44,019 bases of DNA from a virus, in IMG/VR virus record IMGVR_UViG_3300037293_000084, positions 1 through 44,019 of that record. One strand, written 5' to 3'. Below the pieces are notes generated by a model. That model was not told where the DNA came from, made no database searches, and saw only the letters and a list, made by a program, of their open reading frames with translations. The first letter of the stretch is position 1. Each line of letters starts with the position of its first letter. The translations under genes and the position numbers were made by a program. Shown piece by piece: positions 36,137 through 39,322 of the stretch.

Positions 36137-36880
36137 ATGATCGAAAATATAGAGAGAATAGGAAATTTAACAAGCTCACAGGCTTATAGGCTTGTGGGGT
36201 TTGATAGAACGAAAAAAGAACCTAGTGCAGCTTTTTATACTTACGTGGAGGAGAAAATATATGAAAGAGCCTTAAAAAGAAGTTTAGATTTAGGGGCTTA
36301 TGGTCGCTCAATGGCGTGGGGAAAATTCCTAGAGAATAGAGTTCATGCTTTATTGGGTTTGGAGTATCAATTAATTTCTAGTAAAAGTTTTGTGCATCCT
36401 AAATTTGATTTTTGGGCGGGAAGTCCAGATATGATTGTGCCCTCTAAAAAGGTTTCTGAGATTAAGTGTTACGAACCTAAAAAATTCTGCTCTTATGTTT
36501 CCTCTTTGCTAACTAAAGACACGGAAATAATAAAAACTAACCACCCGCAGGAATATTGGCAGATTGTTTCTAATTGCTGTATTTTAGGGTATCCAACGGG
36601 GGAAGCAGTAGTGTATATGCCTTATGAAAGTGAACTAGAGGAAATCATAGAAATGGCTGAGAATCCAGAGTATATAAACCAAATAGGAATGCAGCCCTGG
36701 GAGGTTCGGTTTATCACTGAATCTTCTGCATCTAATTTAGCAACTCTGCCTGATAATGCTCGTTTTTTAAACCTCAACAAATTTGAGTTTAGCATCCCCG
36801 CAGAGGATATTATATTTTTAACTCAGCGAATGATAAAAGCTGGAAAACTTTTAACAAATGGACACAAAAACAATAGCTAG
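36137..36880 (+). CDS. YqaJ/lambda-Exo-type recombination nuclease
   Basis: 247 residues with the PD-(D/E)xK core: E66 in WGKFLENRVH, D98 in WAGSPDMI and E108/K110 in VSEIKCY; HPQEYWQIVSN follows, like the family's Gln motif. It should resect 5' ends of double-stranded DNA and load the RecT-like protein. It overlaps the next gene by 23 bases. Confidence 0.8.
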   Translation: MIENIERIGNLTSSQAYRLVGFDRTKKEPSAAFYTYVEEKIYERALKRSLDLGAYGRSMAWGKFLENRVHALLGLEYQLISSKSFVHPKFDFWAGSPDMIVPSKKVSEIKCYEPKKFCSYVSSLLTKDTEIIKTNHPQEYWQIVSNCCILGYPTGEAVVYMPYESELEEIIEMAENPEYINQIGMQPWEVRFITESSASNLATLPDNARFLNLNKFEFSIPAEDIIFLTQRMIKAGKLLTNGHKNNS

Positions 36881-37274
36881 TACTGATACATTTTTTGAGC
36901 AAATTAGAGGAGGAAAGTTAATAAGTGATAAGCAGAGGATTTACGCTCATATTAAAAAGCATCCTGGGATTACTCTAAATGATTTATCTAGAGGAACTAG
37001 GATAGTTATTCAAACTGCCTCTGCTAGATTGTCGGATTTAATGGATTTAGGAGTAGTGGAGGTTATAGCTACTCAGAAAAGGATAGGGAATGTTACTCTC
37101 TCTAGTGATTCTATTTTAAAGGTCCAGGAGGATTCTATTAAAATTTTAGAAAATAAAAAAAAGAGAAGTGAGAAAAAATTTCAGAGATGTTTAAAAGCGG
37201 TTCTAACCTTTGAGGAGCATTTAGATCAGCAAACTATTACTAATTTAATTAAACACTTAAAGCATCATGTTTAA
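36858..37274 (+). CDS. winged-helix DNA-binding protein (138 aa)
   Basis: Residues about 25-75 (DKQRIYAHIKKHPGITLNDL, IVIQTASARLSDLMDLGVVE) form a MarR-like winged helix. The C-terminal half is basic and helical. It may regulate the replication genes or assist initiation. It starts 23 bases inside the nuclease gene. Confidence 0.6.
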   Translation: MDTKTIASTDTFFEQIRGGKLISDKQRIYAHIKKHPGITLNDLSRGTRIVIQTASARLSDLMDLGVVEVIATQKRIGNVTLSSDSILKVQEDSIKILENKKKRSEKKFQRCLKAVLTFEEHLDQQTITNLIKHLKHHV

Positions 37275-37527: not shown

Positions 37528-37533
37528 AATTCT

Positions 37534-37541
37534 TAGATTTG
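37534..37541 (+). promoter_or_regulatory. promoter -7 element (TAGATTTG) of a short RNA or leader
   Basis: The same octamer as in the two strong promoters of the repeated block, here preceded by a similar AAAATAAAATTCT context. No TTTG lies at the ideal spacing, so strength is uncertain. It starts six bases behind the previous stop. Confidence 0.45.
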
Positions 37542-37640
37542 CAATGTATTATCTGTGGTGGATATGATACATTTAAGATTTTAATTAACAGCCTTTATAG
37601 GAGTAGAGCCACCACCTCGAAACTATAAGGGCTTTTTTTA
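37542..37640 (+). ncRNA. candidate small RNA or attenuating leader before the replication initiator
   Basis: About 99 bases without an ORF. A terminator-type hairpin, AGCCTTTATAG (37590-37600) with CTATAAGGGCT (37623-37633), is followed by seven Ts. Its loop contains CCACCAC (37609-37615), exactly complementary to GTGGTGG (37555-37561) upstream. The two pairings can form a pseudoknot or compete, which is the layout of an attenuator or structured small RNA. It ends about 19 bases before the initiator start. Confidence 0.5.
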
Positions 37641-37658
37641 TTGAGAAAATTAACTAAA

Positions 37659-38354
37659 ATGGACAATAACAATTATATACAGATTCAAGGATGGATGATT
37701 AATGAGCTAGGTTTAAAATCTAATGAATTAATTTCTTATGCAATAATATATGGCTTTTCACAAGATGGAAATTCTGAGTTTACGGGGTCAATTAATTATA
37801 TTTGTAAATCTCTAAAATGCTCAAGACCTACAGCAATAAATACCCTTAGAAATTTAACTGAAAAAGGATTAGTAATAAAAACGGAATTTACAGTAAATAA
37901 CGTGAATTTTAATAAGTATAAAATTATTTTAGGGGTAGTAAAGAATTTTTACGGGGGTAGTAAAGAAACTTTACGGGGGGGTAGTAAAGAAACTTTACCC
38001 AATAATACTAATAATAATAATACTAAAGAAAGTAAAGAGGAAACTCCCTCTTTATTGGTTAAAAAAGAATCTACAAAAGCCAAATTATTTTCTGATAGTA
38101 TTTATTTTAATTATGAAACTTTGAGAGATTATTTAATCAAAGATGAAAAATTTAAAAAGGATTACGCAGGAGTGGATTTAAAATTTTATATTTCAAAAGC
38201 TGAAATGTGGAGTGAGAATAATCCAACAAAGAAAAGAACAGATAGGGGGTGGCTTTTAACTTTAAGAGATTGGATGAGACAGGCTAATGAAAATAAAGAG
38301 TTAAAGTTATTAGAGAACAAAAAAAACCTAAATAATGGATTTACTAATCATTAA
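37659..38354 (+). CDS. phage replication initiator, winged-helix N-terminus
   Basis: 231 residues. The N-terminal 100 residues (GWMINELGLKSNELISYAII, CKSLKCSRPTAINTLRNLTE) form a winged helix as in phage replication initiators. The centre holds repeats GGSKETLRGGSKETLP and a Thr/Asn-rich linker, and the C-terminus has a helical DnaD-like segment. ATG 37659 is chosen over an in-frame TTG at 37641 that lies against the terminator. As in lambda O, the repeats inside the gene are probably its own binding sites. Confidence 0.7.
   Translation: MDNNNYIQIQGWMINELGLKSNELISYAIIYGFSQDGNSEFTGSINYICKSLKCSRPTAINTLRNLTEKGLVIKTEFTVNNVNFNKYKIILGVVKNFYGGSKETLRGGSKETLPNNTNNNNTKESKEETPSLLVKKESTKAKLFSDSIYFNYETLRDYLIKDEKFKKDYAGVDLKFYISKAEMWSENNPTKKRTDRGWLLTLRDWMRQANENKELKLLENKKNLNNGFTNH
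37932..37999 (+). repeat. three iterons with internal dyad, candidate replication origin
   Basis: GGGGTAGTAAAGAA is followed by TTTTTAC in copy 1 (37932-37953) and by ACTTTAC in copies 2 (37954-37975) and 3 (37978-37999). GTAAAGAAACTTTAC is an inverted repeat. The spacing is 22 and then 24 bases, so copy 1 is read in a different frame from copies 2 and 3, yet the DNA is kept. Confidence 0.7.
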
Positions 38355-38368
38355 AAACAAAATAAAAA

Positions 38369-39322
38369 ATGATTGCAGGTTTTGAAATTTTAAATGCTTC
38401 TAATACTTCTGAGGGAATCCTAAAGTATAGAGAAAAGGGAGCAGTTAGAGGGGCTTATTTAGGTTTTCCCGAACTACACGAATATTATACTATGAGTTTG
38501 TCTGGGGTTACTGATTGGACAGGATTCCCTCAAAGCGGTAAAAGTGAAATTTTATTAGAATGTTTGTTAAACACGTCCCTTTATTACGGCTGGAAACATT
38601 TATTATATGTTCCTGATATTGGTGATAAAAATGAAATACTGGCTATATTGATACACAAAATAACAGGCAAAACTTTTGATAAAAGATATGAAAATAGTAA
38701 TTATATTTCAGAGGGGGAAGTTATAAAAGAATTAGACTGGGTTTTGCATCACTTTAGGATATTACATAAAACTGATCTAAAAAGTAAAATTACACCTTAT
38801 CAATTTTGGGATTTAGCAGTAGAACTAAATAATCAGATAGAGGGAGGAATTCAAACGGCCAGCATTGATAGTTGGAAAGATATGAAGCACGATTTTTCGA
38901 GCTTTGGGAGAGAGGATAAATATTTAGAGGATGTTTTAAGTTATAGAAATTCAATAGCTGAAACTCACAAAATTCATTTGCATACAGTTATTCATCCTAG
39001 AGGCGGGACAGATAAAGATTCTAACGGGGTTAGAAAACCTCCAAAACCAGATGACTTAAAAGGAGGCTCTGAGTGGTGGAACAACGGAAAGTGTATGATT
39101 ACTATTCACAGACCTGAAAACTCTAAAAATGGGGTAGATTTTATAGTTACAAAAGCAAAACCTAAAAGTGTGGCAAAGCAGGGAAAAGTTCAGATGTTTT
39201 TTGATTTTAAACTAAATAAATATTACTGGGATAACAACGGACAAAGTAAATATGCTTCTCCGGAATATGTTAAACCTGTAGGGATAACAATTAATGAAGA
39301 TGATGATGATTTACCTTTTTAA
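38369..39322 (+). CDS. RecA/DnaB-type ATPase, probable replicative helicase, with SSB-like C-terminal tail
   Basis: 317 residues. The Walker A is GFPQSGKS (52-59); the Walker B is probably in the SIDSWKD segment, and HTVIHPRGGTDKD supplies a sensor-like His/Arg region, as in DnaB/RecA-like phage ATPases. It follows the initiator gene after 14 bases, where a helicase is expected. The last residues, EDDDDLPF, copy the acidic tip of single-strand binding proteins. Confidence 0.68.
   Translation: MIAGFEILNASNTSEGILKYREKGAVRGAYLGFPELHEYYTMSLSGVTDWTGFPQSGKSEILLECLLNTSLYYGWKHLLYVPDIGDKNEILAILIHKITGKTFDKRYENSNYISEGEVIKELDWVLHHFRILHKTDLKSKITPYQFWDLAVELNNQIEGGIQTASIDSWKDMKHDFSSFGREDKYLEDVLSYRNSIAETHKIHLHTVIHPRGGTDKDSNGVRKPPKPDDLKGGSEWWNNGKCMITIHRPENSKNGVDFIVTKAKPKSVAKQGKVQMFFDFKLNKYYWDNNGQSKYASPEYVKPVGITINEDDDDLPF

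Follow-up and report, generated by a model that had tools for sequence, protein, structure and literature searches.

A phage gene for a likely replication initiator carries iterons that its own product very probably reads

The window, a 44,019-base viral record, contains an open reading frame (37659–38354) whose product is likely a replication initiator. Under the model set out here, to which we assign a good probability, the linker-coding DNA of this frame would be a phage replication origin. It holds three iterons, which are almost certainly under selection as DNA and which coevolve with the recognition helix of the encoded protein. The frame change of iterons (lambda O) and the central position of Rep boxes in rep (RepA_N plasmid pSK41) are already known; new are the unannotated family phrog_6969 as probable iteron-reading initiators and a family-wide recognition code. 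The literature searched contains no description of the phrog_6969 family, its iterons or its recognition code; subscription reviews on phage replication modules and on RepA_N replicons may treat related ideas. The features are as follows, with positions counted along the window.

37659–38354, plus strand: likely initiator gene, 231 aa, with a wHTH domain, a disordered linker and a C-terminal helical domain (HTH_36, phrog_6969)
37659–37934, plus strand: predicted DNA-binding wHTH domain, residues 1–92 (pLDDT; Foldseek matches to RepA and DnaD)
37824–37862, plus strand: predicted recognition helix, residues 56–68 (helix in the model; residue 57 covaries with base −4)
37827–37829, plus strand: codon 57 (Pro), in the recognition helix
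37931–37952, plus strand: iteron 1, read as GVVKNFY, with an imperfect dyad at 37938–37952 (GTAAAG-AAT-TTTTAC)
37953–37974, plus strand: iteron 2, read as GGSKETL, with a perfect dyad at 37960–37974 (GTAAAG-AAA-CTTTAC)
37977–37998, plus strand: iteron 3, read as GGSKETL, with a perfect dyad at 37984–37998 (GTAAAG-AAA-CTTTAC)
37999–38040, plus strand: AT-rich stretch, the presumed DNA-unwinding element (duplex weakness), encoding an Asn-rich linker (PNNTNNNNTKESKE)
38088–38327, plus strand: C-terminal helical domain, residues about 144–223 (model helices 152–211)
38369–39322, plus strand: RecA-like ATPase, primase/helicase-like (phrog_5482, E 9e-108), adjoining the initiator gene

The three 22-bp iterons all lie within the reading frame, with start-to-start spacings of 22 and then 24. 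Iterons 2 and 3 are identical 22-mers; iteron 1 is 86% identical, and its dyad deviates from GTAAAG-AAA-CTTTAC at a single arm position. Since 22 is not divisible by 3, iteron 1 lies in another reading frame than iterons 2 and 3, and the sequence-only reading, which held that the repeats are kept as DNA across a frame change, is confirmed in both the spacing and the two peptides, GVVKNFY and GGSKETL. With up to three mismatches allowed, GGGTAGTAAAGAAACTTTAC is found in the 44 kb at the three iterons only (chance expectation 0; 100 shuffles). The linker scores 23 for off-frame repeats, and none of 15 versions of the gene with synonymous codons shuffled scores above 10. Near 38022, within the AT-rich stretch, a script also marked a fourth iteron-like copy; this one is degenerate and was put down to chance.

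Homologous loci, drawn from phage records, viral contigs and genomes, are phage- and prophage-borne and mostly from Bacteroidota, Firmicutes and Treponema; their iterons, built as half-site, AAA and half-site, occupy the same linker. A survey of 128 nonredundant homologues, in which a score of at least 10 counted as positive and the HTH-coding and C-terminal regions served as controls, finds off-frame DNA repeats in 84% of the linkers, 5% of the HTH-coding regions and 8% of the C-terminal regions. The linker score lies above all 15 synonymous-codon shuffles in 103 of these homologues, and 67 linkers contain at least two perfect dyads, as against six and three regions in the two control sets. 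Copies stand in more than one frame in 104 of the 122 homologues that have at least two, with spacings that have their mode at 22, followed by 24 and 23.

The prevailing perfect dyads are those with a 3-base centre (n = 108), of which 80 have AAA there, a count for which an AAA centre was not a search requirement. Among iterons extracted by rule, AAA conservation is partly by construction, because the rule demands a dyad with an A-rich centre, and some of the extracted copies, one in the window among them, are spurious. The arms vary widely among phages yet stay complementary (GTAAAG/CTTTAC, GTGCAA/TTGCAC, GTTGGA/TCCAAC and CGGAAA/TTTCCG are examples). This covariation as Watson–Crick dyads around a conserved AAA agrees with the earlier suggestion that GTAAAG-AAA-CTTTAC is a candidate dimer site. 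The AAA of the centre is read, with few exceptions, on the coding strand though the arms are symmetrical, both at 37960–37998 and in the homologue iterons; the A-rich centre of the lambda iterons has the same strand polarity.

Codon choice within the repeats is frozen. Across 31 copies of GSKETL in 19 loci, the codons AGT, ACT and TTA are each used in 31 of 31 and GGT in 30 of 31, whereas the same codons are used at 25–33% elsewhere in those genes. Given this near-invariance, silent changes that break the DNA repeat and keep the peptide are not seen among the 31 copies from the 19 loci. Together with the frame-crossing copies in most homologues, the frozen codons uphold the claim of selection on DNA, which is almost certainly real. 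Repeats selected as a repeated peptide, or arisen by neutral tandem duplication and under no selection, would account for copies 2 and 3, which share a frame and are identical, as after a recent duplication. This reading sits badly, however, with copies in different frames that give different peptides, with the frozen codons, with the predicted disorder of the linker, and with the covariation of the dyads and of the recognition helix across diverged homologues; we give it hardly any credence.

The decisive evidence is the coevolution of the protein with its apparent target. When every wHTH column was compared with every half-site base, residue 57 stands out after similarity correction (partial r 0.36; next 0.12), and the five top covarying residue/base pairs all fall within residues 56–61. 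Residue 57 goes with base −4 as P to A in 40 of 42 cases, R to G in 17 of 17, K to G in 6 of 7 and E to C in 6 of 6; Arg or Lys with guanine and Glu with cytosine are common protein–DNA contacts. Natural homologues that differ at residue 57 include L107 (Q, GTCAAA), L148 (R, GTGAAA), L121 (P, GTAAAG) and L127 (Q, GTCAAA). The association withstands two controls for kinship, with residue 57 ranking first of all columns in disjoint close pairs (p 9.7e-6) and 0 of 5,000 swaps within close pairs reaching the observed value. On a tree built without the recognition helix, residue 57 and base −4 change together 18 times against 11.9 expected, which is only moderately significant (p 0.0115); in the same count, only one of the other four top pairs reaches significance.

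The code was then frozen and applied to 64 new nonredundant homologues, which belong to the same family and are not strictly independent in phylogeny. It is right in 16 of the 18 applicable cases, where 5.0 are expected and 0 of 20,000 permutations do as well, and the assignment of R57 to G holds in 12 of 12; of the 60 held-out genes that carry two or more copies, 53 have them spread over different frames. On the strength of the coevolution and the held-out prediction, the wHTH protein very probably binds and reads the iterons, as had been proposed from the window. That one gene is both reader and target, coevolving as a readable code in which residues 57, 58 and 60 determine the bases at half-site positions −4, −1 and −5, is on balance probable.

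Each dyad could give a 6–7-bp stem with an AAA loop, and a near-constant coding-strand position of the AAA would be in keeping with RNA or single-stranded DNA hairpins that regulate translation or transcription. Yet arm mismatches show no G.U excess (224 of A.C type against 139 of G.T type), the repeat region of the window is no more stably folded than its shuffles (z −1.0), its best fold lacking the three hairpins, and the arms covary with the recognition helix of the protein. The RNA form of this reading was rejected for the lack of a G.U excess and the ordinary folding, and hairpins as a whole are very improbable.

The initiator gene is best started at ATG 37659, which comparison with homologues favours over TTG 37641. 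Its product matches HTH_36 (Pfam, E 2.8e-8) and, over its full length, phrog_6969 (E 1.8e-52, profile positions 1–216 of 216), a family annotated as "unknown function"; weaker matches are to PHROGs 270, 186, 428 and 678, which are replication-initiation or O-like. The AlphaFold2 model has a pLDDT of 78.9, and above 90 over residues 1–90. Residues 100–143 are predicted to be disordered, a span that includes most of the residues coded by the iterons and all those coded by the AT-rich stretch.

In Foldseek searches the top solved structures are the staphylococcal RepA initiators 4pt7, 4pql and 5kbj, one of them DNA-bound (4pt7: E 1.6e-4, probability 1.00, target TM 0.47), consistent with a RepA/DnaD-like winged-helix N-terminal fold; the DnaD N-terminal domain 2v79 follows among MarR-type regulators. 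This predicted resemblance to iteron-binding RepA proteins supports the initiator model. Against it counts that the wHTH fold is common to many transcription regulators. A sequence search of solved structures gives weak matches to transcription regulators only; it took the fold search to bring out the initiators.

The C-terminal domain varies among subfamilies and presumably contacts the replication machinery. In phage FCL-2, gp54 (L028:3174-3890) takes the place of the initiator beside the same ATPase, with an unrelated-looking N-terminal domain and the C-terminal GGFTNH ending shared with the initiator; locus L010 similarly differs in the N-terminal half and shares the C-terminal half. A swapping of the DNA-binding halves of initiators is possible. 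Phage FL-1 (L029:2902-3309) encodes, beside an ATPase-sized gene, a 135-aa protein that matches the C-terminal half only and may be an initiator without the iteron-binding domain.

The weakest 40-bp window of the reading frame starts at about 38000, directly beyond iteron 3. In 73 of 120 homologues the corresponding window starts between −10 and +30 of the last iteron (6.6 expected), and Asn in the weak stretch is encoded by AAT 409 times and AAC 23 times, against 1536 and 750 elsewhere. The adjoining ATPase matches DNA primase/helicase families (phrog_18375, E 1.7e-13; phrog_239, E 1.6e-12) and is, on these profiles, likely a replication partner. Downstream genes in sampled homologues are mostly DnaB, DnaC/IstB-type loaders or primase/helicase-like ATPases; some match nothing known, one is an integrase and one a DUF, and neighbours of this kind, for which a replication function is not recognised, count against the origin model. 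GC skew is positive along the whole window with no sign change and is silent on origin position.

Because the layout matches those of lambda ori and pSK41 ori, we infer an origin function here. An N-terminal winged-helix dimer would bind each palindromic iteron (half-site, AAA, half-site), with iteron centres 22–24 bp, or about two helical turns, apart. The array of bound dimers would strain the adjoining AT-rich stretch (37999–38040), which would open, and the C-terminal domain with the ATPase of the next gene would bring in the helicase, or act as helicase. The peptide from the iterons and the AT-rich stretch would be a disordered spacer whose DNA is held by binding and which, being disordered, could tolerate frame changes.

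The same sites might instead be operators, bound within its own gene by a transcriptional regulator that controls its own or downstream genes, with no origin involved. Coevolution speaks for binding only, not for purpose, and the fold also resembles regulators of the MarR/MepR type. But in every iteron-bearing subfamily the sites are placed in the middle of the gene, in the stretch that separates two domains, and not at a promoter; a weak-duplex stretch follows them; the neighbour genes are helicases and loaders; and the profile matches point to replication initiators. Operators are thus improbable, and the origin model is preferred.

Upstream of the initiator lie a YqaJ-type recombination exonuclease (36137–36880) and, after it, a second small winged-helix protein (HTH_24; 36858–37274). 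Just before the initiator gene, 37528–37645 has the character of a structured intergenic RNA (fold z-score −2.05), with an 11-bp hairpin (37590–37600 with 37623–37633) followed by seven U. Its loop segment CCACCACC (37609–37616) complements GTGGTGG at 37555–37561, a possible pseudoknot or attenuator; an Rfam search of 37528–37645 gives no family at the gathering threshold.

The analysis supplies a likely function and a likely origin position for proteins annotated as hypothetical in phage records, among them those of phages of Flavobacterium columnare and Bacteroides fragilis. The homologues provide over 180 natural experiments, each a gene that encodes a DNA-binding residue together with the base it targets, the two having changed in concert, and each a coding sequence that has had to meet the demands of DNA binding. 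If the code is true, sequence could reveal origin specificity, and hence the compatibility of co-infecting phages, throughout a large family without annotation that occurs in phages and prophages of Bacteroidota, Firmicutes and Treponema.

In lambda, gene O has four iterons and an AT-rich tract mid-gene, between the parts coding for DNA binding and for the C-terminal region, and O binds as a dimer to its iterons, which are nearly palindromic around an A-rich centre (PMC7466680). The window shares with it tandem near-palindromic iterons inside an initiator coding sequence, an AT-rich stretch beside them (as in the 73 of 120 homologues) and, by the coevolution and held-out prediction, an initiator that appears to bind its own iterons. 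The comparison with lambda O made in the sequence-only reading is apt also in that the annotated lambda iterons at 39034, 39054, 39078 and 39101 change frame (0, 2, 2 and 1 of O). The systems differ in iteron geometry (6–7 + 3 + 6–7 bp here, 6 + 5 + 6 in lambda), in the partner gene (a RecA-like ATPase here, P in lambda) and in family (HTH_36 here, PF04492 for O). No direct homology to lambda O was detected (hhalign probability 0.1; no PF04492 match), and the sole link is a bridge via phrog_678.

In pSK41, RepA has a DnaD-like winged-helix N-terminal domain that binds four Rep boxes placed centrally in rep, and the linker encoded by ori is dispensable (PMC5703833). RepA_N iterons are inverted repeats that converge on a poly-A tract (PMC7145576), and the window iterons resemble them as inverted repeats meeting at an A tract. 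Pfam gives no RepA_N (PF06970) match to the window protein at E up to 0.1; the link to these initiators (pSK41 and pTZ2162 RepA) comes from the top fold matches 4pt7, 4pql and 5kbj. Profile similarity to DnaD-like phage helicase loaders (PHROGs 186, 270 and 428) is detectable over the wHTH domain and linker; the window protein itself scores 19.3 of 27 bits against Pfam DnaD_N, under the cut-off, and homologue L042 matches it at E 1.5e-6. Unlike the RepA_N plasmid initiators, the family is phage- and prophage-borne. On the predicted structure, the RepA_N/DnaD wHTH is a closer relative of the window protein than lambda O.
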